A DNA stretch of 64,000 nucleotides from Methanofollis aquaemaris (lineage in GTDB: Archaea > Halobacteriota > Methanomicrobia > Methanomicrobiales > Methanofollaceae): the NCBI RefSeq assembly GCF_017357525.1, contig NZ_CP036172.1, forward strand, positions 620,001-684,000, written 5' to 3'. Position 1 is the stretch's first letter. The number at the start of each line of letters is the position of its first letter. Both the position numbers and the translations under genes were made by a program. The notes beneath the pieces were generated by a model. It was given only the letters and a program-made list of their open reading frames with translations. It ran no database searches and had not been told where the DNA came from. Below, in pieces: positions 26,004-40,312 of the stretch.

Positions 26004-27176
26004 CTATTCATCGTAGTGCTTCTTGAGGAACCGTCGCACCACACCCGACTCCAGCCAGCACTGGTCAAGGTCGGTGACGAGGGCGTCGATCTCACGAGCA
26101 TGCCGGATCACCTGCTCGGAGAACTCATTGTCACCTATCTCGGCAAGCCCGACAATGACCGAGAGAGGGTTTCTGATCCGATCATTGAGCGAGGCGAGTT
26201 GTGCGAAATTCCGATCGATCTGATCGAGCGCCTCCTTCCTGAGAACCTCCATCTTTCGGCGCTCGCTGATGTCCAGAAGAGAGAGCAGATACAGAGGCCG
26301 TTCCGAAATCTTCCCCACGGTCAGGAGCACCTCGACCTCCTTCCCGTCGACCCGCCGGAGTACGACCTCATACTGGTCAGGGGCGGACGCGAGATCCTCC
26401 TTCCTGCATCGGTGGAACTCATCAAGCACCTGCTGCCGGTCAGGATCGACAAATGAAGTCCAGCGCCGCCCTTTCAGAAGACGCGGATCTTCCCCGAGAA
26501 TTTCTCCAAACCGTGTATTGGCATGGACCAGGAACCCGTCGTCCATGACCACCGCCATTGCCGTTCCGGTGTGCTCGAATGCCGTCCTGAGAATATCTTC
26601 CGAGCGCTTCAGTCGTTCTTCGACCTTTATCCTATCTCTGGCCTCAACCGCAGACCGATGGGAAAGGGTCAGACCATATGAGAGTAAACGCGCAAGGACA
26701 CGGTAACTCTTCCTGGCCTGTTCGACCTCCTCTTCAGGGAGTATCGGCACCTCCATCAGAGCATCGGTGTATTCTCGAACCGGATACCCATAACGCTGTG
26801 CCATGGCCAGAAAATAGCCTGACTTCTGTTCCTCTTCAGAGCGGAAAAACGGCGGCCCGAGGAGGGTCGCCACATGCCTCTCCCTGAGAACGATCGGGAC
26901 GGCAACCCGCCAGAGGCGATGAGGACAGAGAAACACAAAAGAATTCCTTGATGAAGCATAGGTGCCGATCCCGGTCATGCATGTCCTGCACGCCCGCCCG
27001 CTCGCCGTATGCTTCCTGTGAAAATCCGAGCAGATTCGCATCTCCCCGACAGAGACACACTCATGACCCTCAAGCGTGACGATGCTGGACCTGACTCCGA
27101 GGAGTTCGCTGACCTCATTGAGTGTGCGGTACAGCCGGGAGAGTTCAGGAGTTTCGTCAACAAGAGGATCTCTCAT
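26004..27176 (-). CDS. PocR-PAS signalling protein lacking a kinase ATPase domain
   Basis: A cytoplasmic sensor of 390 residues. Residues about 10-170 form a PocR-like ligand-binding domain with the cysteines of CRTCMTG and an FLCPHRLWRVAVPI segment. A PAS domain follows at about 195-305 (ILRTAFEHTGTAMAVV ... LLTVGKISERPLYLLSLLDISERR). The last 80 residues look like a histidine-kinase dimerisation helix (LNDRIRNPLSVIVGLAE), but the phosphoacceptor histidine position is not histidine, and the protein stops without any HATPase domain. It cannot be a classical kinase. A role as a sensor adaptor or a partner of another kinase is possible. Confidence 0.8.
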   Translation of the reverse strand: MRDPLVDETPELSRLYRTLNEVSELLGVRSSIVTLEGHECVSVGEMRICSDFHRKHTASGRACRTCMTGIGTYASSRNSFVFLCPHRLWRVAVPIVLRERHVATLLGPPFFRSEEEQKSGYFLAMAQRYGYPVREYTDALMEVPILPEEEVEQARKSYRVLARLLSYGLTLSHRSAVEARDRIKVEERLKRSEDILRTAFEHTGTAMAVVMDDGFLVHANTRFGEILGEDPRLLKGRRWTSFVDPDRQQVLDEFHRCRKEDLASAPDQYEVVLRRVDGKEVEVLLTVGKISERPLYLLSLLDISERRKMEVLRKEALDQIDRNFAQLASLNDRIRNPLSVIVGLAEIGDNEFSEQVIRHAREIDALVTDLDQCWLESGVVRRFLKKHYDE

Positions 27177-27363: not shown

Positions 27364-28359
27364 TCAAAGGGGCGAGGGCCACCCCTCACCAGGGCCTTCC
27401 GAGAACCGGACAATCATATAGTCCATGAACTCGCGGGCAAGGTTGGGGTGAGGGGCAGTGTTCGGGACCGTCGCCGCATAGACGATGGGGTTGCCGACCC
27501 GCTCGCTCCCGATGGAACCGAACCGCTGAAAACCAAGTTTGACCACGGCCTTCTCATAGTCATCTGCATATGCCGCCGAACTGAGATCGATCTCAGTCGG
27601 CAGAGTGACATACTGCAGGCCATGCCCCTCGGCGACGCTCAGGTACTCGAAGGCATAGTCCACCCCGCCGGCGTCCAGGAGAGAGAGAAGATAGATGCTC
27701 CCGTCCCGCACCCGCACCATCTCGCCCTCGGCCTTGAGCACCTCGGGGAGCGTGATCACGGTGACGGACCCTTCCTGAGAAACCTCCAGCGCCGGTTTGA
27801 GATGGTCGCCAAGGATGGCGTCGTAGATAGAGTCGTTGCCATAGTAGTCTTCGGCAAGCGTCGTCACCATCAGCGAACGGTAGCCTGCGGCGTCGAGCAT
27901 GGGGTTTGAGATCCCGACGACGACGTCTGGTCTGGCAAGCACCTCATACCAGTTCTCTGAAGTGATCTCATCGGCATACAGACTGTGGTTGGTGTAGGCG
28001 ACGACCATCTGGTTGGTGGCGAAGGGGGTGTACGAGTCGGTGTAGTTCCCTTCCCCCTCCTTCATCGATCGGTACATCATGTCGGGGATGAGGGCCTCGT
28101 CTGCGACCACCACCACATCGATGTCACGGTGGAGGTCGGTCACCTGCCTCACGCACTGGATGGAACCGTGCCCCTCGATCTGGACGTCCACACCGGGGTG
28201 GGACGCCTCAAACCCGACCTCCACCTCTTCCATGGGGAGAAGAAGACTCCCGGCCGGGACGACCCGGAGGGTGGTGGGCGTGTTGTCGCCACCGGTGCAC
28301 CCGGCAGCAACGGCAAAGACCGCTACAAGGGCGAGGAGAACGAGGGGGGTGCCCCTCAT
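27364..28359 (-). CDS. wtpA: WtpA-like tungstate/molybdate ABC transporter binding protein
   Basis: An extracytoplasmic lipoprotein receptor of 331 residues with signal peptide and lipobox (AVAAGCTG). The WtpA pattern is clear: RVVPAGSLLLPMEEV, FEASHPGVDV, GSIQCVRQVTDL, ATNQMVVAYT, NWYEVLARP and GYRSL. The acidic residues I associate with octahedral oxyanion coordination in this family, the D in SNPMLDAAG and the E in YAFEYLS, are kept. Permease and ATPase genes are absent from the window. Its start (ATG at 28359) overlaps the preceding gene's stop, so it is the last gene of a six-gene operon of surface proteins with molybdopterin-binding-like folds. Confidence 0.85.
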   Translation of the reverse strand: MRGTPLVLLALVAVFAVAAGCTGGDNTPTTLRVVPAGSLLLPMEEVEVGFEASHPGVDVQIEGHGSIQCVRQVTDLHRDIDVVVVADEALIPDMMYRSMKEGEGNYTDSYTPFATNQMVVAYTNHSLYADEITSENWYEVLARPDVVVGISNPMLDAAGYRSLMVTTLAEDYYGNDSIYDAILGDHLKPALEVSQEGSVTVITLPEVLKAEGEMVRVRDGSIYLLSLLDAGGVDYAFEYLSVAEGHGLQYVTLPTEIDLSSAAYADDYEKAVVKLGFQRFGSIGSERVGNPIVYAATVPNTAPHPNLAREFMDYMIVRFSEGPGEGWPSPL

Positions 28360-28940
28360 GAGCGTTCCACCTCGATCCGGTCCACCCACTTCACCCAAGC
28401 GCTCCCCTCGGTGATGGTGCTCGGTTCATCGGTGCCGACCACCATCCTGAGCGGCCCGCCGTCCCCGTCAGGGATCGCCGTCCCGTTGAACTCGTAGGCG
28501 AGGACCAGGGTAAGATCTGGTGAGGGTTTTTCCTTGAGGTTCTCGTCGAAGGTCACAAAACCCTTCCCGGCCACCTGTTCGTCATCGAAGACCCAGTAGT
28601 AACCGTCAGGTGCCGATATTCCGACCTGATCGCCTTCTCCAAACCCGCCGACCAGATCGAACAGCGTTGTGAGAGATACGCCCTTCACCGTGTACGGCCC
28701 GTACTTGATCCCGACCGTGGAAACTGCATAGCCATAACCCTCCCAGGCAGGAAGCGCCTTGATCTCAGAGAAGGAGAGCACCTTTTCCTGGGTGCCGTCC
28801 GTGACCGTGAGATTCCAGGCGACATCTTCTCCCGCCTGAGCGGCGGGATCGGTACTCCCGGTGGTTCCAGTACACCCACAGGCGGCCGCAGCGCAGATGA
28901 GGGCGAAGACGACCAGGAACCGGACGAAACGAGCCTTCAT
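28356..28940 (-). CDS. Lipoprotein with molybdopterin-oxidoreductase-like (sulfite-oxidase-fold) domain
   Basis: A 194-residue lipoprotein (MKARF start, lipobox AACGC) with a single domain resembling the sulfite-oxidase molybdopterin-binding fold (PF00174-like). Segments VLSFSEIKALPAWEG, GPYTVKGVSLTTLFDLVGG, DQVGISAPDGYYWVF and GGPLRMVVG follow that pattern. The cysteine that ligates molybdenum in true sulfite oxidases is not evident. It sits between another surface protein and wtpA, overlapping both by 4 bases (ATGA). A cofactor- or ligand-binding role without redox chemistry is inferred. Confidence 0.75.
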   Translation of the reverse strand: MKARFVRFLVVFALICAAAACGCTGTTGSTDPAAQAGEDVAWNLTVTDGTQEKVLSFSEIKALPAWEGYGYAVSTVGIKYGPYTVKGVSLTTLFDLVGGFGEGDQVGISAPDGYYWVFDDEQVAGKGFVTFDENLKEKPSPDLTLVLAYEFNGTAIPDGDGGPLRMVVGTDEPSTITEGSAWVKWVDRIEVERS

Positions 28941-29788
28941 CCCCGCATCCTCCATGCAAACCCGGCAAGACCAAGCCCGGCCAGCAGTCCGAGAATCGGA
29001 GCAGGGCTCTGGGCAGTCTTTGCGGCCGTCGGAACCTCTGTCGTCTCAACCGCAGCAGATCCCTGGAGTGACTTGACCGGGACATTCTTCACTCCATTAT
29101 ATCCTCCTTCATAGACCCGCACCTCATCGATCCACTTTACAGTGTAGCCTGAGGTCGAGGGATAGAGGTCGTTAAAGAGATGGAGACGTTCAGGCGGGAA
29201 GCACTCGCGCATATCCTGGTTCCCGAAGACATGCTTGCCCTCCGGGTTGGTGGAGTCGTCGGCAAAGAAAACCAGGCGCATGCCGGCATGATAGTCAGGG
29301 GGGTACCCGACGCCCTGCCGCTCGCCGACAGTTGCGTCCTCGCCATTGTACCAGCAGATACCGATCGGTCCCTGGCGCGGCGCGGGTTCATAGACATTCT
29401 GATACCCAAACTCGATATGATACCCGTCGCCCGCCTTGATCATCACCTCGTCACCGGGCGCCATCCCGCCGACCAGGTCGCAGAGGTCGGCGACATTTGT
29501 GCCCTTCACCGCGCCGCGGTCCTTGAAGTTGGCGGTCTCGTTCCTGTCCCACTGGGCCTCTTTGTCCTCGGCAAAGACCGGGCCCTGGTGGTAGTAATGC
29601 GTCACCCCGTCCCCGAGCACCGGGAGGTTTTTCTCCATCCACTGGTAGTCGACTGTCGTCTCGTTGAGCACCGTGGTGCCGTCGTCTGCAAGTTTTACCA
29701 CATGCACCGAGTCTGTCGATGCGGCCTGCACCCCTGCGAAACATGCACAGAGGAGCAGAATCAGAAATACACTTTTTGTTCTGTTCAT
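28937..29788 (-). CDS. Surface protein with molybdopterin-like domain and C-terminal sorting-type anchor
   Basis: A 283-residue exported protein. The signal peptide is about residues 1-22. A domain of about 200 residues begins HVVKLADDGTTVLNETTVDYQWM, contains GAVKGTNVADLCDLVGGM and AGDGYHIEFGYQNVYEPAPRQG, and ends with HVFGNQDMRECFP. This module recurs in the genes at 31055, 34074 and, twice, 34928, and looks related to the sulfite-oxidase-like fold. A Thr/Ala linker leads to SPAPILGLLAGLGLAGFAWRMRG, a helix plus basic tail typical of a protein-sorting signal. It lies four bases after the phosphatase gene, with AGGTGA before its ATG. Confidence 0.75.
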   Translation of the reverse strand: MNRTKSVFLILLLCACFAGVQAASTDSVHVVKLADDGTTVLNETTVDYQWMEKNLPVLGDGVTHYYHQGPVFAEDKEAQWDRNETANFKDRGAVKGTNVADLCDLVGGMAPGDEVMIKAGDGYHIEFGYQNVYEPAPRQGPIGICWYNGEDATVGERQGVGYPPDYHAGMRLVFFADDSTNPEGKHVFGNQDMRECFPPERLHLFNDLYPSTSGYTVKWIDEVRVYEGGYNGVKNVPVKSLQGSAAVETTEVPTAAKTAQSPAPILGLLAGLGLAGFAWRMRG

Positions 29789-29792
29789 ACAA

Positions 29793-31058
29793 TCACCTTT
29801 CTTTTCTCAGCCACAGAGCGGCGATACCGGCCGCTGCACATGCGCAGAAGGGAGAGAGTGGTGCCTGTGCGGCATCTTCTCCCGCTCTCTGCGGCGTCAT
29901 CTCAACCCTCTCGAATGTGCTGTTCGGGGGGTAGAGATACACGACCTCCCTGCTATCCTCGGAGAGTCTGGCCACCGGTATCACCTCGGCCGTGACACGA
30001 TCTGCGGTCACCTGAACTCGCAGGTAGGCGAGGGTGTGCTCAAGGCCGTTAGCGTACCCGACCATCTTCTCCTCCGCAAGGGGGTAGAGCGCCTCCCCGC
30101 CGCAGGGGATCACAAAGTATTCTGTCCCATTCACCTCGTAGTGCTCGTAAGCATGGACATGCCCGCTGAAGACTCCGGCGACACCGTGGCGCTCGAAGAG
30201 CGGGGCCCAGGATTCGCGCAGGGTGCGGTCCCCGCCCCAGTGCCGTTCATTGGATGAGAATATTGGATGGTGGAAGGCAGCAAAGGCCCACTGATTTCCT
30301 GCGCCGGCAAGATCCTCTTCCAGCCATGCGGTCTCTTCGTCAAGCCGTCCTTTTGCCCAGTCATTGGAATCGAGGACAGCGATGTGAGCCTGGCCGCATT
30401 CAAAAGAGTACCACTCAGGCACCCCGAAGGTCTCGTAGTACACCGAGCGGTTCCCCTCATGGTTGCCGAGGGCCGGGTAGATCGTAGTGTTTGCAAGCAT
30501 CCGCCGCCCGGATGCAAAGAACTGATCCCATTCGTCGAGGTCGTGGCCGAAGGTGACGAAGTCACCGCAGTGGAGGACAAAGGAGAGGTTCTTCTCCTCT
30601 GCAATCCGGTCGGCAACGAGTTTGTGCCGCTCAAGTGGGGTGAAATACGGGGCCTGGCCCCTCGTGTCGCTATAGACCACAAAGGTGCACGGCCCATCTC
30701 CAAAGGTTCTGAACCGGCAGTCCGGGCTGGTCACCTCGTCTGTTCTCACTACATAGTGGTAGACCATCCCTGGTGTGAGATTGGTGAGGGTGATATGGTG
30801 AAGGGGAGCTTCTTCCAGGCTGGTCACCTCAACGGTATACTCTCCTTTCAGGAAGGCCGCTTCGTCGGCGTACGCCACCGCACCCCCGGTCGGCTCGACG
30901 GTCTTCCATGATATGACCGCCGAAGTCTCGTCGGTCCCGGTGACATACGGCCCCCAGAGGAGATCAGTCCCTGCGGCCGCGGCTGCAGCAGGGAGAAGAA
31001 GCATGGCAAGAAAGAGCCATGCTCCGAGATACCTGCGATCTGGTTTCACGCGGCTCAC
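29793..31058 (-). CDS. Exported purple-acid-phosphatase-like metallophosphatase
   Basis: A 421-residue secreted phosphoesterase. A signal peptide (residues 1-29) is followed by a fibronectin-like domain (GPYVTGTDETSAVISWKT...) and a calcineurin-like metallophosphatase with motifs YSDTRG, HCGDFV, GNHEG, FHHP and GHVHAYEHY. A C-terminal hydrophobic stretch ending in LWLRKER, preceded by AQAPLSPF, looks like a sorting or anchoring signal. The start is GTG at 31058 (GTGA overlapping the stop of the preceding gene), so it is translationally coupled within the wtpA operon. Removing phosphate from an external substrate or cofactor before uptake is inference. Confidence 0.85.
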   Translation of the reverse strand: MSRVKPDRRYLGAWLFLAMLLLPAAAAAAGTDLLWGPYVTGTDETSAVISWKTVEPTGGAVAYADEAAFLKGEYTVEVTSLEEAPLHHITLTNLTPGMVYHYVVRTDEVTSPDCRFRTFGDGPCTFVVYSDTRGQAPYFTPLERHKLVADRIAEEKNLSFVLHCGDFVTFGHDLDEWDQFFASGRRMLANTTIYPALGNHEGNRSVYYETFGVPEWYSFECGQAHIAVLDSNDWAKGRLDEETAWLEEDLAGAGNQWAFAAFHHPIFSSNERHWGGDRTLRESWAPLFERHGVAGVFSGHVHAYEHYEVNGTEYFVIPCGGEALYPLAEEKMVGYANGLEHTLAYLRVQVTADRVTAEVIPVARLSEDSREVVYLYPPNSTFERVEMTPQRAGEDAAQAPLSPFCACAAAGIAALWLRKER

Positions 31059-34000
31059 TTTCTCAGCCTGACCTCGCAGGTGACCATCCGGTCAGGGACG
31101 ACCATCACGTCCTCGACAGTCTTTGAATCCGAGCGCCCGACCACCTTGACTGTGTACTTCCCAAGGTCCATGCCAGTGAAAAGGTGCGGGGTAACTTCCC
31201 CGGTGTTCGCCCCGTAGAGGTAGATCTTCGCCCCCGCTGGCGTGCTGTTCACGTACAGGGCGCCGTGGGCATAGGTCTCCAGATTGAATGTGACAGAGCG
31301 ATCGTCCGTCCCTTTCGGAATATGAACCTCTTCCTCCTTCGGGAGATAACCGGGCTTTGTGACCATCACGCCATGACAGCCATACGAGATATTTTCAAGG
31401 AGGTACGGGGTCGCATGTCCGGTTTCGAAGCCGTCGATGAAGATCTCGGCGCCGGACGGTTTAGAATCGACCTTGAACGTGGTGAGGCCGGGCATTTCAT
31501 TGAGAGATACCGTCTCACCGTCTCCAGCATATCCCGGGACCGGGATCGAGAAATAGGCACCATCATGGTAAAACGAGGCAAATGCATTGAGCACCGGCAC
31601 CTTCACTTTTGCAGGCATCTTCTTGCCGGTGGGATGCCCGTTGACCGCACAGTACTCACCCTTGAAGGTGGAGGCATCGAGGGTGACCGTCCGTGTCATA
31701 GACTGTTCATAACGGTCAAAATAGACCGGGACGATCGTGCCGGGGGTCACCCAGACCTCTCGGGTGTCTACTTTATAAGAAGCCTTGTCTTTTTTGACCT
31801 TCACCTTGTGCCGCCCCTCTTTGAGGCCATTGACCACCTGTGGGGTCGTACCCTCGATCTTTTTGCTGTCGATATAGATCGTAGCCCCACCGTCGGTGGC
31901 GTCCACATAGATCCCGCCTGAATCCAGGTCGGTTCCCTGAGCGGTGAGGAGTTCCAGACAGGCAGGGTCGACATTGATATTCGATCTGGCGGATTCGAGA
32001 GCAACGGTCACGTCGGTCTCTTCGGTGAGGTCGAAGGTGGTCGCATAGGGCCGATAACCCTCAAGGACCAACTCCAGAGAGTGGGCGCCGGTGGGGAGGG
32101 CCTCAAGCCTGGCCGGCGTGATCATCCCGAGGTACTCCCCGTCAAGTACGACCTGCGCCCCGGCCGGGTAGGTGATGATGTTGAGGGGTGCATTCTCGGG
32201 GAGGGAAGGTGTGGGTGTCGAGACTGGTTCTATGACCGGCGCCGGTGTAAGTGAAGGGGATGCGGTCACCGCTGCCGTCGGTGCCGGGAAGAGGGAGCCA
32301 ATGAGCGGGATACCGTGCAGCCAGCCAAGAAGGCCTGACCAGAAGCTCCCCTCCTGTGCGGTGTCAACATCGACTTTCCCATCATCAGAAAGGGTGGTGG
32401 GCGGAGGAGACGAAGTGGTCTGGAGAGTGGGGGGCGCCGTTGTCTGCATGGTCGTCGGTTCGGGGGTCGGTTCAGCATCGCGGGTTCCGACGATCAGGAC
32501 GGCGAGGCGGTTCTCCAGATAGTCCCCGCGCTCGTCATAAGATACACTGGAGACCGCAAGCGTGTTCCCGCTCGGTCTGAGATAGGAGGTCACTTCCGCC
32601 TCTCCGATCGAGATCGCCTTCTCACCGCCGTCAAGGAGGTTCATCCACTCCCCGTCATGGAAGGTGAGGCAGTTGGTGTAGGTATCGTTCCCGGAAGCCC
32701 CGGTCACGACCGAGAAGACCCTGGCATCGATCTCTCCGTCTCGCATAACTTCGTCAGGGAACTCGGCCGTGCTGGTGGCGCCCTCTTCATCGACGCCGGC
32801 AGAGGGATCGGCCTCGATGGCGTCCGCACCTTCGGCCACCCAGTACGAGATGCTGGTACGATCGTCCCTGACGACCGCAAAGAGCACCCCGCCGTAGAGG
32901 GTGAGTGAAGTCTCTTCAGGGCCGTTATTTTTCACATCGAGTGAGAGATTGCCCTCTGGAACAGAGGCCTTGAGGTCATAACACCAGGTCTCGACTGCCG
33001 GATCGTCGCCGTCCGGGCCGAGGTCGGCATAGTACTCCGAGAGGCCGAGTTGCTGCGAGTTCAGAAGAGTGGAGATGTCTTCCCGCTTCGCATCGTCCTT
33101 TGCGGTGTTGTTGGTGCCGAAAAGGTACAGGCAGGCGCTCTCGACGTTCTCAAGCCCCGTGGTGTTGAGCGAGAAGTGGGCGGTCTCTCCGGCCGCGATC
33201 GTCTGTGCCTCGCCACCGGTCTGGATGAGAGATACCGATCCGTTCACCGTCCCATGAAGGGTCCGGGTGAGTGCTGCGCCCTCAAGGCCGCGGGGCTTGG
33301 AAGACCCGCCGTCACCACCAGAGGAGGAACCACCCTGGTCGGGGTCGATCTCGCTGTGGATGATGATCCGGTCGACATGGTAGACCGAGTTGCCGCTTGC
33401 CGAGGGATACTGATTGTTAAAGAAATACCAGTACTCCTCATCCCAGGACTCGTGCATGTCCCAGTTGCCCCAGACGTGCTTCCCGGCATCGTTCGTGGTC
33501 TCGGCGAGGAAATAGAGGCGCATCCCTTCGGTGAATCCTTCGTCGATGTAGCCGGTGTCCTTGCCATGGTACCAGGCGATCACCATTTTCCCCTGTCGGG
33601 GATTGGGAGCATAGATGTACTCAGCCGGCCATGTCTTGTACATCCCGTCGCAGGCCTTGATCTCGACCATCTCTCCCTCTGCCGCCCCACCGACGAGGTC
33701 GCAGAGATCTTTGACGTCGGTGCCCATGAACTCGCCATGGTCCTTGTACTCGAGGTTGACGTCCTCGGTCGGGTTCCAGTAGTCGTAATCCTGGCCAGGA
33801 TGTTCCTTCTCCCAGGCGCCCTCAAAGATCGGGCCCTGGTTGTAGTACATCGTCTCGCCGTCCCCCTGGACATCAAGGTTATCTCTCATCCATTCCCAGG
33901 TGATGGACTTCTGGTCGAGGATGGTCTTGTCGTCACTCGCCAGTTTGGTGATGGTCAGTTCGGTCGTCGGCGCTGCTGAGACCGGAACGGCGATCGACGC

Positions 34001-34066
34001 GATCAGAAGAAGAAAGAGTGCGGTGACGACCAGGAGTCCGGTCGCCGCCCTGTGCATTCCTTTCAT
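31055..34066 (-). CDS. Large surface protein: molybdopterin-like + DUF3344-like + four PEGA domains
   Basis: An exported protein of about 1003 residues. After the signal peptide comes the recurring 'VKLADDGT / YxWM' module (about 30-245), a Gly/Ser linker, then a DUF3344-like region (about 262-545; VESACLYLFGTNN ... LYGGVLFAVV ... YWVAEGADAIE). A Pro/Thr linker with a short hydrophobic patch follows, and four PEGA-type beta domains fill the remaining 380 residues (PAGAQVVLDGEYLGMITP, SGAEIFIDGFETGHATP, AGAKIYLYGANTGEVTP and a divergent DGGATIYIDSKKIEGTTP). No C-terminal anchor is seen. The start is ATG at 34066; a TTG at 34072 has better ribosome-site spacing (GAGGAG five bases upstream) and is a fair alternative. 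Confidence 0.78.
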   Translation of the reverse strand: MKGMHRAATGLLVVTALFLLLIASIAVPVSAAPTTELTITKLASDDKTILDQKSITWEWMRDNLDVQGDGETMYYNQGPIFEGAWEKEHPGQDYDYWNPTEDVNLEYKDHGEFMGTDVKDLCDLVGGAAEGEMVEIKACDGMYKTWPAEYIYAPNPRQGKMVIAWYHGKDTGYIDEGFTEGMRLYFLAETTNDAGKHVWGNWDMHESWDEEYWYFFNNQYPSASGNSVYHVDRIIIHSEIDPDQGGSSSGGDGGSSKPRGLEGAALTRTLHGTVNGSVSLIQTGGEAQTIAAGETAHFSLNTTGLENVESACLYLFGTNNTAKDDAKREDISTLLNSQQLGLSEYYADLGPDGDDPAVETWCYDLKASVPEGNLSLDVKNNGPEETSLTLYGGVLFAVVRDDRTSISYWVAEGADAIEADPSAGVDEEGATSTAEFPDEVMRDGEIDARVFSVVTGASGNDTYTNCLTFHDGEWMNLLDGGEKAISIGEAEVTSYLRPSGNTLAVSSVSYDERGDYLENRLAVLIVGTRDAEPTPEPTTMQTTAPPTLQTTSSPPPTTLSDDGKVDVDTAQEGSFWSGLLGWLHGIPLIGSLFPAPTAAVTASPSLTPAPVIEPVSTPTPSLPENAPLNIITYPAGAQVVLDGEYLGMITPARLEALPTGAHSLELVLEGYRPYATTFDLTEETDVTVALESARSNINVDPACLELLTAQGTDLDSGGIYVDATDGGATIYIDSKKIEGTTPQVVNGLKEGRHKVKVKKDKASYKVDTREVWVTPGTIVPVYFDRYEQSMTRTVTLDASTFKGEYCAVNGHPTGKKMPAKVKVPVLNAFASFYHDGAYFSIPVPGYAGDGETVSLNEMPGLTTFKVDSKPSGAEIFIDGFETGHATPYLLENISYGCHGVMVTKPGYLPKEEEVHIPKGTDDRSVTFNLETYAHGALYVNSTPAGAKIYLYGANTGEVTPHLFTGMDLGKYTVKVVGRSDSKTVEDVMVVPDRMVTCEVRLRK

Positions 34067-34073
34067 AGCCAAC

Positions 34074-34880
34074 TCATCTCCTCAGGGCGGCGACGGCACA
34101 GATGGCCAGAAGTCCGGCCAGCGGACCGAGAGGCGATCGGGAGGACGTCGTCGGGACACTCCCGGTGTCGCTGCCGGTGTCGTGTGCGGTGATCGCAAGT
34201 TCGTTCACATGCTTGACCGAGAGCCCGCTCGTCGAGGGCCAATCTCCTCCGAAGAGATGCCACTCGTCCTCGGGGAGAGTCTCTTTCATATCGTTGTCCC
34301 CAAAGACGTGCCAGCCCCAGGGATTGACCGAGTCGTCGGCAAAGAAGATCAGGCGCATGCCGTCATAGTAGCCAGGGGCATAACCAGATCCCTGTGGATC
34401 GCCGGTGAGGGAGTCCTCGCCTACATACCAGGCGATCCCCATGGTTCCCTTTCTGGCTTCCTCACCATAAACGCTCTCATAGGAGAATTTCTTGTAGAAA
34501 CCGTCCTCAGCCTCCACCTTCAGAGTGTCGCCAGGGGTCATGCCGCCCACCAGGTCACAGAGATCACTGACCGCGGTCCCTTTGACCGCACCATAATCTC
34601 TTGTGTCGACGTTCTGGTATTCAGCAGGGTCCCATCTGTCGGACTCGTTGAAGGTCGGGCCCTGGTGATAGTAATGCGTCACCCCGTCCCCGAGAACAGG
34701 AAGATTCTCCTCCATCCAAGTATAATCGACAGTCCGCTCATCAAGGATCGTTGTCCCGTCTGAGGCATACTTGACGACATGCACCTCGGTCGTCGCCGCG
34801 GCCGCCGGTATCATGAACACCATCAAAAGCAGCAATCCGGCGACTTTCAATACGCCATGCTCTCTCATTGTGTCATTCAA
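34074..34880 (-). CDS. Surface protein with molybdopterin-like domain and sorting-type anchor
   Basis: A 268-residue paralogue of the 28937-29788 protein: signal peptide, then the module starting HVVKYASDGTTILDERTVDYTWM through GAVKGTAVSDLCDLVGGM and MRLIFFADDS. A short Ser/Thr linker ends in SSRSPLGPLAGLLAICAVAALRR. The identical stretches LPVLGDGVTHYYHQGP and STSG show recent common origin. It is first of the six-gene operon ending in wtpA; AAGGAG lies five bases before ATG 34880. An internal ATG four codons later is the alternative start. Only 47 bases separate it from the end of the giant gene upstream. Confidence 0.75.
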   Translation of the reverse strand: MNDTMREHGVLKVAGLLLLMVFMIPAAAATTEVHVVKYASDGTTILDERTVDYTWMEENLPVLGDGVTHYYHQGPTFNESDRWDPAEYQNVDTRDYGAVKGTAVSDLCDLVGGMTPGDTLKVEAEDGFYKKFSYESVYGEEARKGTMGIAWYVGEDSLTGDPQGSGYAPGYYDGMRLIFFADDSVNPWGWHVFGDNDMKETLPEDEWHLFGGDWPSTSGLSVKHVNELAITAHDTGSDTGSVPTTSSRSPLGPLAGLLAICAVAALRR

Positions 34881-34927: not shown

Positions 34928-37900
34928 TTATTTTCTCCTGAGAATCAGGAGCGCACCGAGCGCGATGAGCGACAGACCCCAGAAGACCGGGGTCTTCTTC
35001 GGGGTGGTGACCGGCACGGTCGTCTCGATCGTCTCGATCGTCTCGGTCGTCTGGGTCGCAGGCTCAGTCGGGGTCTCGACCGGCGCCTCGACTGACGGGT
35101 GGGTCACCTCAGGTCCGGCGGACCCACCCTTCACGGTGGCGATGGCGAAGTACGAGAAGCCCGGAGATTCGGCGTGGTAGAGGGCCTTGCCGCCTTCTTC
35201 GCCGAGGAACTCGGTCTCAAGGTGCTTCCAGGCACCATCGACGTATCGCAACATTGCGATGTCGCCTGTGCCGACACCCTGGCTTGCAAGCCAGCCCGAA
35301 GGTACGGCAAATTCGATGGTGACCCCTTCGAGGGCGGCCGGATCGGCCCGGTACAGGGTGATCTCCTCGAGTTCATAGACCTGGCCCTCGGGGGTCTGGG
35401 CGTCACCCGGGAGGGAGGCTTTCTTCACCGTGACCAGAAGGTCAGAGACCTGGTCGTAGGCGCCGAGCGTGATCTTTGAGATCGCGGTCTCGCCCACCAG
35501 GAAGGTCTTCTTCTCACCGGCCTGGAGAGAACCGGCAAAGGCCGAGACTGCTGAGGAACTGCCGGATGATGAGGAACCGCCTGAGATCGGTTTGGGCGTT
35601 GCAACGCCGCCGACCGCGAAGAATGAAAATCCTGGCGTGGTCGCTGTGTAATACGCAGCACCATCGCGGTTCTCCAGGTGGGTGGTGGGGAGCTGCTGCC
35701 AGGCGTCGCCATGGTACCGGTAGAGTACTACGTCGGCCGGGGCGAGTCCCTGAGCGGAGAGCCAGGTCAGCGGGACTGAGAACCGAATCTCGGCACCATC
35801 GATGTCGTCGGAAGCTGTACCGAAGGCCGAGATCTGCAGGGTCTGATAGAGTCTCTCCACCGGTGCCTTCACTTCAGGCGGAAGATCGGCGCTCCCGACC
35901 GAAAGAACAAAGTCAGGGACATCTTTCCCTACGGTGACGTTGATCCGGAAGACCGGGGAATTATTAACGGTCATGTTGACGGCTTCGCCCTTCTTGACCG
36001 GCCCGAGATCGGTGAACTCGGTATCGAGGTTAAGTCTGATCCGCTCGACGCCGTCGACCTGCATCTCAGAGGTTACATTGGCACCGACAAGGACCAGCGG
36101 CCACTGGACCCCCTTCTCGTTCAGGACTTTTCCATCCAGAGTATTTGCGATGATGTAGTCCCTGCTATCGATGATATCGCGGCTTGAAAGTGTTTTGACC
36201 GAACCGTCGCGGCCGACGATGTCGATGGTGTATCCTTTCAGGGCGAGTTCACGGTCGAAAGCCTTTCCAGAATGTTCATTTGCATCGTCTACCCAGCCGC
36301 AGAGGAAGTACAGCGGCATGCCGCCCCAACGGTTGCCCTGAGCATCGACATACTCGGCCTTGTGGTTTGCACCCATGGTGCAGGTCAGCGCGCTCTCGAA
36401 GAATCCCTTGCTGATGTCTCTCGTGATCGCACCTTCAAGGCTCAGGTTCCAGGGTTCCTCGGCGACGGAGTAGATCCTGATCTCGCTGATCCACTTCGGC
36501 GAGATACCTCCACAGGAGGGGTACCGGATGCCGTCGGCAGAGTAGTAGTGCCAGTAGGCCTCGTCCATGCTCTCGTGCATGTCCCATTGGCCGAAGACGT
36601 GGTCCTCAGGGGTGTAGAAGAGCCGATAGCCCTCGACATAGTCAGGGACATAGCCCTGCCTCTCGGTCCACCAGACGAGGACCGCATCGCCCTGTCTGGG
36701 GTTGGGATCGTAGATGTTCTTCCAGCCGAGTTTGGTCTCCCAGCCGTCTTTTGCGATGAAGGAGATCTCGGTGCCCTTGGGCATGCCGCCGACAAGGTCG
36801 ACAAGGTCACGCACGGCGGTGCCCTTGATGACATCCTCGATCTTCGGCGGATCGAGGGCCTTGTTCTCCTCGGGGTTCCAGAGGTCGTTGGGGTCGAAGG
36901 TGACGCCCTGGAACTTGTACGGCTGGTCGTCTCCATGGACCTCAAGGTGGTCCTTCATCCAGCGGTAGTCGACCGTCGTCTCGTTGAGAACCGTGACGCC
37001 GTCGGGAGCGAACTTGACAATCCGTACCGTGGGGACCTCGGCCGGCTTCTGGAACTCGGTCAGTTCGATGGAAGCGATGCTGCCGACACTGTTGCTACCG
37101 GCGACGTCGGCACCGACGAGCCTCAGGGGCCAGGGCGCCTTGTCTCCGTCGTTCGGGAGAGCGGTGCCGTTGAGTTTGTTTGCGACGATGTAGTTGTTGT
37201 TCCGTGCAATATCCTTGCTCAAGAACTCCTTGGAGTAGCCGTCCTTCGCGGTGACGATCACTTTGTAACCGTTATCGGCAACGAGGTCGTTGAAGCCGTT
37301 CTGGCCGTGCGGGACACGGTCGTCGACCCAGCCGCAGAGTTCCCAGAGGGCGATACCTTCCCAGCGCTCGCCGGTCTTCTGGTTGGTCCAGCTCACCTTG
37401 TGATGCGAGCAGGACGCGGCCTCTTCAAAGAACGCCTGGGTACAGGTGTAGTCGATCTTTCCCTTCAGGTCGAGGTTCCAGGAGCCTTCCGGCGCCGGGC
37501 CGGGGATGAGATCGACGAGGTCGATCTCGGCGACAGCCTTCACCGACTTGGGTACGCCGTCACCGACGAGTTTGAGCGGATATGACGTATCATTCGAGGG
37601 GATCGGCTGGCCGTCCACCAGGTTTGCAAGGATGTAGCCATTGCTGCGAGCGACCTGTTTGCTCCCGTATTCCTGCGACCATCCGTCTGATGCGATGACT
37701 CTGACAGTGTAGTTCGTCGCCGCCAGGGTGTCGTCGAAGGTCCAGTGGTCTTTGCTCTCGATGTCGTCGGAGACACCGAGGAAGTACCAGAGCGGCACGC
37801 CGCTCCAGACACGGTTCTTGTTGTCGGTATACTCGACACTGCCATGGCACCCGGATTCCTCGAACTCGGCCTGGGTGACGGTGTCGTTGACCGCACCGCA

Positions 37901-40312
37901 GACCTTCAGGGTCCAGCCCTCGTCGGGCCCGGGAAGGCCGACGAGTTCGATGGAGGCGATGGCGCCGACCAGTTGTCCGGCGTCGGCTGCGGAGCCCTTG
38001 ATCTGGAGCGGCCAGCAGGGTTTCTTCTTCTCGCCGATGGTCTCGGGGAGAGGTTCGCCGTTGAGGGTGTTTGAAACGATGAAACCGCTGTTATGAGCCA
38101 TATCGGCGCTCGGGATGTTGATCGAGTAGCCGTCCTCCGAGATGACTTTCACCGAGTAGCCTTCGGCAGCCAGTTCGTCGTTGAAGGTGTAGTGGCTGCC
38201 GCCCTCCTCGTCGTCGACCATGGCGACGAGCATCCAGAGGGGCATGCCGGCCCAGACGTCGCCGGTATCGGGATCGGTCCAGCTTGCCCTGTGGCTGGAC
38301 AGGCAGGCGATGCCTTTCTCGAATTCGGCCTTTGTGACGGTCGCGTCGCAGGCGCCCTTCAGGGAGAGAGTCCAGTCAGTGCCAGGCGACGGGGGGGTAC
38401 CGCCGTTGACGGTGATCGCAACCACGGCGGTCGCCGCTTCAGGGGAACCGTCGGGGCCGTAGTAGAAGATCACTTCGTCGCCGTCATGGAGCGGGTAGTT
38501 GGGGTAGCCTTCGGTCTCGTAACTATCCCAGTAGTCGAGCATCTTGCCGTTGACATAGCACTCCCAGCCCGCCTCATGCTTCACGAACTGGAAATCCGCG
38601 ATGGCGTCGAGGATGATCTTTTCGTACTTGACATTGGTGAGGTAGTCAAAGTTGCCGGCAATAGAGGCGGCGTGGAGAGCGCCGAACGGAGTGTAGTTGC
38701 CGACTTCATAGGTCTGACCTGCAGACTCCTGCGTGTAGGTGCCCTCGGTCAGGGTGACGCCACCGTTGAAGATGACCGTCTTGCCGGCGAAGGGATCTTC
38801 TCCCACCGCGACATCGATCAGAACCGCCGCGACTGCGTTCTCAGGGGTGACACCGTCGGGCCCATAGCAGAAGACGACTTTGTCCCCGTCCTTCAGCGGA
38901 TAGTTGGGATAGCCTTCCTCGGCATAATTGCCCCAGTAGGCGAGTTTCTTGCCGTTGACATAGCACTCCCAGCCCTGGACTTTCTTTTCAAACTGATATT
39001 TATCGATGGCATCGAGGACCAGTTTGTCCTGGTTGTTGTTCACGACATAGGTAAACCCGCCTTTCGTGGCCGCGGCGTCGAGCGCACCGAATGGCGTGAG
39101 CGTGTTCACCACATGGGCTTCGCCGGCAACGTCCAGGTTGAAGGTACCTTCAGTCAGGGTGACTCCGTCGTTGAAGATCTCGTCGGCCCTCTCTTCAGGT
39201 GGGGCGAGTTCGATCCTCGAGATCTCCTCGACGGCCCGCTGGGTGCCGTCGACACCGGTCCCCTGCAAGTAGAGGGGGAAGAAGACGCGGTCGATATACG
39301 TGCTCTGGTTGATCTCGATGTCATTGAAGGTGTTCCCGAGGACGTAGGTCTTCTTGCCGTCCGTCACTTCGGTAGAGTAGAAAGTGGAGACCTTATCCAC
39401 ACCCTTCTTCTTGCCGTAGACCGTGATCGTGTAGTTCTCCGCAGCGAGGGCCTCGTTCACGGTTGCGGGGTCGTCGTCGTCGGCCAGGGCGATGACCGCG
39501 GAGAGGTTGGCACCCTCAAGGAGGCCGTACTTGTTCGTCTGGAATGAACCCGGGTGCGCTGCGGCAAGGGAGATGAACTCGTCCCTGCTGAGGGTGCGGT
39601 TCGTCGAACCGTTCAAATAGATGGACCAGTCCGCGGCGGCGGGGTCGCGGCTCTGGACGACGATCCGGCTGACATATTTTGCGGCGAACCCTGTCGTCGA
39701 CGGGTGAGTGGAATCAGACCAGTGCCAGTACGTCTCAGGCAGGCACTCCTTCATGTCCTGGTTGCCGAAGACATGCTGCCCTGCTCCATTCGGGGTCTCG
39801 GCAAAGAAAGCGAGGCGCATGCCATCTGTGTACGATGGCACTTCCTGGCCATTGCACTCCCAGGCAACGACCATTTTACCTTGCCGTGGATCAGGGTTAT
39901 AGACACTCTCATAAGGAAAAGTCGGTGGTTTGTACTCATCTGAAGGGATGACGGTTACCGTGTCTCCTTCGTCCATCCCGACAACCTCACAGAGGTTTTT
40001 GAGGGCCGTTCCTTTCAGAGCACCCATATCCTTCAGATTGAGGGTTTCACTTGCATCCCACACATCGGCATCATTCACTATACCCTGAAGCCAGTAGTGA
40101 ATCGTGCCGTCTCCCTGGATCGGAAGATCTTCTCCACCTGCTTTCAATACATCGAGGCCGATCGATACATTTGCAATTTCTGTACCGTTTTCAGCCAGTT
40201 TTATAATAGTCACTTCGGTCGTGGGATCTGCCGCAGCCACGGGTGCGACAAGCATCCCTGCAACTGCAAAGACCAAGAGTGCCAGAATCATTAATCGGTT
40301 CTTCAAATTCAC
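34928..40312 (-). CDS. Giant mosaic surface protein with transcobalamin-like and molybdopterin-like domains
   Basis: A 1794-residue exported protein. Approximate order: signal peptide (1-27); YxWM module (30-225); sulfite-oxidase-like domain (230-370); two DUF4430/transcobalamin-C-like domains (380-505, 513-640; FNDGVTLTEGT ... WECYVNGK ... YPNYPLKDGDKVVF); three sulfite-oxidase-like repeats (646-1090; WxLxLKG ... W.G.PLWxLxxxVDD); a second YxWM module (1098-1285); a fifth sulfite-oxidase-like domain (1288-1425); two PGF-pre-PGF-like domains (1433-1720); a long Thr/Pro linker; and TPKKTPVFWGLSLIALGALL plus ILRRK. The start is GTG with GAGGTG upstream. No catalytic residues identified. A cofactor-binding surface scaffold is inferred. 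Confidence 0.8.
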   Translation of the reverse strand: MNLKNRLMILALLVFAVAGMLVAPVAAADPTTEVTIIKLAENGTEIANVSIGLDVLKAGGEDLPIQGDGTIHYWLQGIVNDADVWDASETLNLKDMGALKGTALKNLCEVVGMDEGDTVTVIPSDEYKPPTFPYESVYNPDPRQGKMVVAWECNGQEVPSYTDGMRLAFFAETPNGAGQHVFGNQDMKECLPETYWHWSDSTHPSTTGFAAKYVSRIVVQSRDPAAADWSIYLNGSTNRTLSRDEFISLAAAHPGSFQTNKYGLLEGANLSAVIALADDDDPATVNEALAAENYTITVYGKKKGVDKVSTFYSTEVTDGKKTYVLGNTFNDIEINQSTYIDRVFFPLYLQGTGVDGTQRAVEEISRIELAPPEERADEIFNDGVTLTEGTFNLDVAGEAHVVNTLTPFGALDAAATKGGFTYVVNNNQDKLVLDAIDKYQFEKKVQGWECYVNGKKLAYWGNYAEEGYPNYPLKDGDKVVFCYGPDGVTPENAVAAVLIDVAVGEDPFAGKTVIFNGGVTLTEGTYTQESAGQTYEVGNYTPFGALHAASIAGNFDYLTNVKYEKIILDAIADFQFVKHEAGWECYVNGKMLDYWDSYETEGYPNYPLHDGDEVIFYYGPDGSPEAATAVVAITVNGGTPPSPGTDWTLSLKGACDATVTKAEFEKGIACLSSHRASWTDPDTGDVWAGMPLWMLVAMVDDEEGGSHYTFNDELAAEGYSVKVISEDGYSINIPSADMAHNSGFIVSNTLNGEPLPETIGEKKKPCWPLQIKGSAADAGQLVGAIASIELVGLPGPDEGWTLKVCGAVNDTVTQAEFEESGCHGSVEYTDNKNRVWSGVPLWYFLGVSDDIESKDHWTFDDTLAATNYTVRVIASDGWSQEYGSKQVARSNGYILANLVDGQPIPSNDTSYPLKLVGDGVPKSVKAVAEIDLVDLIPGPAPEGSWNLDLKGKIDYTCTQAFFEEAASCSHHKVSWTNQKTGERWEGIALWELCGWVDDRVPHGQNGFNDLVADNGYKVIVTAKDGYSKEFLSKDIARNNNYIVANKLNGTALPNDGDKAPWPLRLVGADVAGSNSVGSIASIELTEFQKPAEVPTVRIVKFAPDGVTVLNETTVDYRWMKDHLEVHGDDQPYKFQGVTFDPNDLWNPEENKALDPPKIEDVIKGTAVRDLVDLVGGMPKGTEISFIAKDGWETKLGWKNIYDPNPRQGDAVLVWWTERQGYVPDYVEGYRLFYTPEDHVFGQWDMHESMDEAYWHYYSADGIRYPSCGGISPKWISEIRIYSVAEEPWNLSLEGAITRDISKGFFESALTCTMGANHKAEYVDAQGNRWGGMPLYFLCGWVDDANEHSGKAFDRELALKGYTIDIVGRDGSVKTLSSRDIIDSRDYIIANTLDGKVLNEKGVQWPLVLVGANVTSEMQVDGVERIRLNLDTEFTDLGPVKKGEAVNMTVNNSPVFRINVTVGKDVPDFVLSVGSADLPPEVKAPVERLYQTLQISAFGTASDDIDGAEIRFSVPLTWLSAQGLAPADVVLYRYHGDAWQQLPTTHLENRDGAAYYTATTPGFSFFAVGGVATPKPISGGSSSSGSSSAVSAFAGSLQAGEKKTFLVGETAISKITLGAYDQVSDLLVTVKKASLPGDAQTPEGQVYELEEITLYRADPAALEGVTIEFAVPSGWLASQGVGTGDIAMLRYVDGAWKHLETEFLGEEGGKALYHAESPGFSYFAIATVKGGSAGPEVTHPSVEAPVETPTEPATQTTETIETIETTVPVTTPKKTPVFWGLSLIALGALLILRRK

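Follow-up and report, generated by a model that had tools for sequence, protein, structure and literature searches.

Methanogens need tungsten (W) or molybdenum (Mo) for formylmethanofuran dehydrogenase, the first step of CO2 reduction. In Methanofollis aquaemaris, a gene for a tungstate/molybdate-type receptor, wtpA2, closes a run of six abutting genes on the minus strand (27364-34868), and the question raised by this locus is what the other five proteins do next to a metal receptor. We analyzed the run within a 64,000-nucleotide stretch of contig NZ_CP036172.1 (assembly GCF_017357525.1, positions 620,001 to 684,000; hereafter the window). A first-pass annotation had proposed that the six genes function jointly in scavenging intact tungsto-/molybdopterin. 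We consider it probable that the operon instead encodes the components outside the membrane of a tungstate/molybdate ATP-binding cassette (ABC) importer of the Wtp type, together with additional surface proteins of the sulfite oxidase (SUOX)/PruR fold and an exported metallophosphatase; the surface proteins would capture W/Mo and hand it over to WtpA2.

Conservation of the operon

The run leads from a short exported YxWM protein (YxWMa) through a large YxWM-DUF3344-PEGA protein, a purple-acid-phosphatase-like protein (PAP), a second short YxWM protein (YxWMb) and a small lipoprotein (LP) to WtpA2. YxWMa is separated from the next gene by 7 nt and PAP from YxWMb by 4 nt, and the other three junctions are 4-nt overlaps. 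By eye, all the products carry a signal peptide or a lipobox and most of the short ones also have a C-terminal membrane segment; because of these features they are predicted to act outside the membrane.

LP was present in 29 of the 61 genomes of the order Methanomicrobiales (30 genomes gave matches, one of them a spurious N-terminal match). The order YxWMb-LP-WtpA was found at all 29 loci, which span six families, mostly with 4-nt overlaps; wtpA was frame-shifted at one locus, in a metagenome-assembled genome (MAG). Scanning the species genomes of GTDB yielded 55 LP loci, by title all from Methanomicrobiales or close relatives except one in a MAG. Among these, YxWMb lay directly upstream of LP at 51 of the 51 loci with room, WtpA directly downstream at 51 of the 53 testable loci, and WtpB directly after WtpA at 15 of the 49 loci with room. 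A PAP homologue was found inside the fetched stretch at 19 of the 32 loci having both flanks. In a phylum-wide draw, YxWM proteins occurred in 36 of 295 genomes, and outside the order in just two families. One locus outside the order (L145) carried a complete one-strand run PAP-YxWMb-LP-WtpA-WtpB-WtpC and two others (L143 and L146) near-complete runs, so that PAP holds its position in the cassette there too. The exception in the GTDB scan (L098, JAAYPL010000194.1) is a contig with the archaeal cassette in a MAG labelled Clostridiaceae; it is probably mis-binned.

The recurrence of the order at the 29 loci, at the 55 loci and outside the order indicated that the six-gene arrangement is not due to chance, and the persistence of the order across such deep branches argues strongly that the cassette genes function jointly. 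The expectation of the first-pass annotation that the gene order would be conserved across Methanomicrobiales was thus borne out even beyond the order, and its inclusion of the phosphatase in the cluster was confirmed by the conserved place of that gene. Its outline of the operon needed minor correction: all six genes are there and abut, but the run begins at the ATG at 34868, preceded by AAGGAG, and not at 34880, which is an upstream TTG. The 4-base overlaps that it noted at most junctions occur at three of the five, and it did not mention that wtpB and wtpC, which many relatives have in the cassette, are missing here.

WtpA2 and the link to tungsten and molybdenum

WtpA2 passed the curated model TIGR03730 with 333.5 bits (cut-off 242.75) and did not reach the stricter NF003196 (302 bits, threshold 355). 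Its nearest solved relatives are the WtpA of MA_0280/AF_0094. The WtpAs of the cassettes formed one clade with a support of 1.0. Non-cassette WtpAs from these genomes fell outside that clade, and the identity of the cassette proteins to the other WtpA was 38-41%. We assigned the ligand columns by the numbering of Pyrococcus furiosus WtpA (PMC4139814) and by residue spacing. Asp160, the metal ligand that sets W selectivity in the P. furiosus protein (PMC10221389), was present in 86 of 86 cassette WtpAs, and the AGS/GS motifs were also retained. In three genomes (G015, G018 and G056) the cassette WtpA is the sole WtpA, and wtpBC lies beside each. The permease and ATPase encoded in the cassettes matched the WtpB and WtpC models best, both below cut-off.

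Five of the loci, including one outside the order, have as a neighbour a MosB-like homologue of molybdenum storage protein (best PDB match 2ogx_B, E 4e-64). This family, for which NCBIfam gave only UMP-kinase-like models below cut-off, occurs in 42 of the 61 genomes of the order: in 27 of the 29 with LP versus 15 of the 32 others (Fisher p 9e-5, uncorrected for relatedness). Because the order is conserved, the cassettes of relatives include WtpB and WtpC, and a Mo-storage homologue is a neighbour, the locus is, judging from sequence, a W/Mo uptake locus. Two related observations were made along the way. The genome of M. aquaemaris itself has two adjoining homologues of molybdenum storage protein subunits at another site (G000:C1:1949131-1951074), and one locus of the survey (L056:6392-8341) encodes a 649-aa chain in which TupA-like and WtpA-like substrate-binding domains are fused, with a similar long frame in a second genome (G020).

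LP, the YxWM proteins and the phosphatase

LP matched PF00174 with 39.9 bits (cut-off 24); the family was also matched by 52 of 52 LP orthologues, and the LP profile found a plant sulfite oxidase (E 1e-7). The AlphaFold2 (AF2) model of LP had a pLDDT of 94.6, and its Foldseek matches included sulfite oxidase and PruR (E 4e-6). All 28 PDB matches at E<=1e-3 have the SUOX fold, the best match in size being PruR (TM 0.72). From the predicted structure we are confident that LP is a genuine PF00174 domain with the sulfite-oxidase fold. The column of the Mo-ligating cysteine is alanine in LP, which has no cysteine after the lipobox.

The periplasmic protein PruR has the SUOX fold and also lacks the Mo-ligating cysteine; it binds reduced pterins, works by docking on a partner, and has a pocket judged too small for the molybdenum cofactor (Moco) (PMC13259868). 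Its pterin site includes Tyr104 and Trp160, and its Asn102 is replaced by Asp in some groups (PMC13259868). The N102-D-Y104 motif of PruR aligned to a D-G-Y motif in both LP and YxWMb, by way of a SUOX-like protein of the bacterial replicon pNGR234b; S. meliloti pSymB gave no recognisable PruR. D77 and Y79 are invariant in LP orthologues, as are D101 and Y103 in those of YxWMb. W147 and W150 are invariant in LP and W199 is near-invariant in YxWMb; these are candidate equivalents of PruR Trp160. R130 and K149 of LP, also invariant, correspond to R288 and K301 of chicken sulfite oxidase, which we take to be cofactor contacts.

The YxWM proteins were harder to place. The two short ones belong to no Pfam family, and a comparison of 51 YxWMb orthologues with Pfam gave nothing usable, although the orthologues have 39 invariant residues in common. 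Direct profile searches of the PDB gave zero matches for YxWMb and also for a PF00174 module of BIG, the large surface protein next to the operon (Table 1). The AF2 model of YxWMb was moderate (pLDDT 78, pTM 0.81), and its best PDB fold matches were PruR structures (E 4.9e-3, prob 0.99). YxWMb and LP share a segment of 40 columns (hhalign E 2e-9), and the YxWM module of the DUF3344-PEGA protein is ~42% identical to YxWMb. The models suggest that YxWM proteins are distant members of the SUOX fold only.

PAP matched the purple acid phosphatase of kidney bean (E 9e-13). It retains six of the seven metal ligands, whose identities we take from general knowledge of the plant enzyme; the Fe(III)-binding tyrosine is not retained. 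PAP is likely an active phosphatase.

The first-pass annotation had described LP as PF00174-like and WtpA as a carrier of tungstate or molybdate; the former agrees with the profile and structural matches, and the latter was strengthened by wtpBC and the Mo-storage neighbour in relatives. For the YxWM proteins its sulfite-oxidase-like assignment is suggested by a distant resemblance in fold to PruR, with no Pfam match. Its premise that the fold here would hold molybdopterin as the enzymes do was not supported, given the missing cysteine and the pocket of PruR, which is judged too small for Moco (PMC13259868). Joint function is strongly supported, and the scavenging of intact tungsto-/molybdopterin is weakened.

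Neighbouring genes and a second YxWM locus

Table 1. Genes of the operon and the adjoining gene for BIG (window positions)
Feature	Coordinates	Strand	Basis
wtpA2 (331 aa; lipobox VAAGC), tungstate/molybdate-type substrate-binding lipoprotein	27364..28359	-	TIGR03730
LP, sulfite-oxidase-fold lipoprotein (194 aa), without Mo-ligating Cys	28356..28940	-	PF00174, AF2, Foldseek
YxWMb, exported YxWM protein (283 aa), C-terminal anchor; core partner of LP and WtpA	28937..29788	-	synteny, AF2
PAP, exported purple-acid-phosphatase-like metallophosphatase (421 aa)	29793..31058	-	PF16656 + PF00149
YxWM-DUF3344-PEGA(x4) surface protein (1003 aa)	31055..34066	-	PEGA 9e-40, DUF3344 1e-27
YxWMa, exported YxWM protein (264 aa)	34074..34868	-	50% identity to YxWMb
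BIG, surface protein (1,794 aa): ~seven PF00174-like/YxWM modules, two DUF4430, PGF-pre-PGF	34928-40312	-	

Upstream of the operon, the gene for BIG stops 59 nt short of YxWMa, and its place beside the other genes is conserved; the module count of BIG is our reading of the sequence. BIG combines in one protein the SUOX-like modules with DUF4430 domains, which are transcobalamin-like. Downstream of wtpA2, a T-rich stretch is followed by a gene for a PocR-PAS-HisKA kinase (26004-27176). This gene lies outside the conserved core, related genes being found at the same place only in the genus of the window, and we rejected the kinase as a member of the system on that ground. An Rfam scan of the window gave zero RNA families, and a promoter and terminator scan stayed near chance level with bacterial models that are not intended for archaea.

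At a second YxWM locus of M. aquaemaris (G000:C1:2550384-2564552; L161:4384-18552), YxWM proteins of 1,186 aa and 404 aa are encoded together with a PAP-YxWM fusion of 1,471 aa, and genes for a Peripla_BP_2 receptor and an FmdE protein lie nearby. This hints at another metal or cofactor uptake system of similar style.

Proposed working and alternatives

In the working that we propose, scarce W/Mo would first be bound at the cell surface by the anchored YxWM proteins and LP, as the oxyanion or in complex with a small organic ligand of pterin-like type, and then be passed to WtpA2. PAP may dephosphorylate the organic carrier or lessen competition by phosphate, and WtpA2 would deliver the oxyanion to a WtpBC pump. 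The genome has a second wtpABC operon ~85 kb away (G000:C1:732-735k), and WtpA2 presumably uses the WtpBC of that operon. Several observations weigh against this reading or qualify it. Neither wtpB nor wtpC is present in the window, so that the pump is assumed. The residue at the position of Glu218, the second carboxylate metal ligand of WtpA (PMC4139814), is serine in 86 of 86 cassette WtpAs. The pNGR234b protein that links PruR to LP and YxWMb carries D-G-Y as well as the Mo-ligating cysteine; the motif is therefore a mark of the fold family no less than of pterin binding, with which it is compatible without being proof. YxWM modules occur without neighbouring Wtp genes as well, adjacent to Peripla_BP_2 transporters, and may be general surface modules.

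This last point underlies the main rival explanation, that YxWM and PF00174 domains are general structural surface domains, an S-layer-associated scaffold that holds several ABC receptors and has no specific ligand. The presence of YxWM modules in giant multi-domain surface proteins and beside Peripla_BP_2/FmdE genes fits such a role, but YxWMb is more conserved across families than WtpA (median identity 61% versus 57%), which is unusual for a scaffold, and its order relative to LP and WtpA is strictly one-to-one; we consider a scaffold unlikely. The loss of Glu218, together with the separate clade, its low identity to other WtpAs and the exported phosphatase in the operon, would suit a WtpA2 repurposed for a different oxyanion or a phosphorylated organic acid. 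However, the 18 non-cassette WtpAs examined have Ser (16) or Gly (2) at the same position, so that the idea of a new ligand following from the lost carboxylate was weakened; the cassette proteins retain Asp160 and the AGS/GS motifs, some genomes have no WtpA other than the cassette copy next to wtpBC, and a MosB-like protein is a neighbour at some loci. Repurposing is very unlikely in our view. Across the WtpAs examined from the order, Glu218 is lost in cassette and non-cassette copies alike (e.g. L070:4110-5210), and it is retained in those of Methanosarcina, Methanocaldococcus and Archaeoglobus. Given this loss, the W/Mo selectivity of the WtpAs of the order may differ.

Two further alternatives concern the ligand of LP and the YxWM proteins. 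Scavenging of intact tungsto-/molybdopterin by surface proteins, with the phosphatase processing phosphorylated forms, draws on the fold of LP, on its invariant R130 and K149 and on the place that PAP keeps outside the order. Because of the missing Mo-ligating cysteine and the comparison with PruR, whose type of pocket is judged too small for Moco, it is weakened; moreover, Wtp pumps carry oxyanions, and the cofactor would have to release its metal first. We therefore regard it as quite unlikely, and less likely than surface capture of the W/Mo oxyanion or of small pterin complexes. It is equally doubtful, or slightly more so, that LP and YxWMb bind extracellular reduced pterin in order to modulate WtpA/WtpBC or a sensor and take no part in metal capture. 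PruR, the nearest stand-alone fold, does dock on a partner (PMC13259868), its pterin motif is retained here, and the PocR-PAS-HisKA kinase adjoins the operon. Yet the cassette has no partner of the DcpA/DTB type, the conserved core contains no GGDEF/EAL or kinase gene, and regulation would leave the many surface modules and the phosphatase unexplained.

Comparison with known systems

The surface capture system proposed here resembles WtpABC of P. furiosus and Archaeoglobus in the WtpA family as defined by the curated model, in the WtpB and WtpC genes that follow in many relatives and in the Asp ligand. It differs in having two more proteins of SUOX or distantly SUOX-like fold encoded immediately ahead of wtpA, usually with a phosphatase and other YxWM proteins close by, in the Glu218-to-Ser change and, for the copy of the window, in standing without wtpBC. 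With PruR of the PruR-DcpA/DTB signalling systems of Agrobacterium and Vibrio, LP shares a small exported SUOX-fold domain without the Mo-ligating cysteine and the N/D-x-Y motif, and PruR is its best-matching solved fold of the same size; unlike PruR, the proteins here are lipoproteins or anchored and adjoin an ABC receptor rather than a cyclic di-GMP enzyme or a kinase. The Moco enzymes sulfite oxidase and YedY have in common with LP the fold, the GGPxR and VKW motifs and the Pfam model. LP, however, lacks the Mo-ligating cysteine and any dimerisation or haem domain, and it is not expected to be an enzyme. PAP has the N-terminal and catalytic domains and six metal ligands of purple acid phosphatases, but the Fe(III)-binding tyrosine is not conserved and PAP is fused or adjacent to YxWM proteins.

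Wtp transporters are already known as a three-gene system. The analysis shows a conserved larger system, with surface proteins of a pterin-binding fold and a phosphatase; open-licence papers on W uptake in Methanomicrobiales, Methanofollis or Methanoculleus, on DUF3344/DUF4430 surface proteins and on uptake of exogenous Moco gave no account of the cluster. Both W and Mo are potentially scarce under sulfidic conditions. The analysis suggests a function, with concrete candidate ligands, for unannotated surface proteins of methanogens (YxWM and in part DUF3344/PEGA), and their recurrence across a whole methanogen order and beyond allows a new means of capturing metal to be tested. As a tentative extension, which we hold to be rather unlikely, uptake in methanogens and related archaea could be pterin-assisted: PruR-like surface proteins would bind an extracellular pterin-metal complex, which may be a pterin metallophore or a breakdown product of the cofactor, a surface phosphatase would trim it, and a dedicated WtpA would import the freed oxyanion. 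If true, this would be the first metal uptake system of such a kind.

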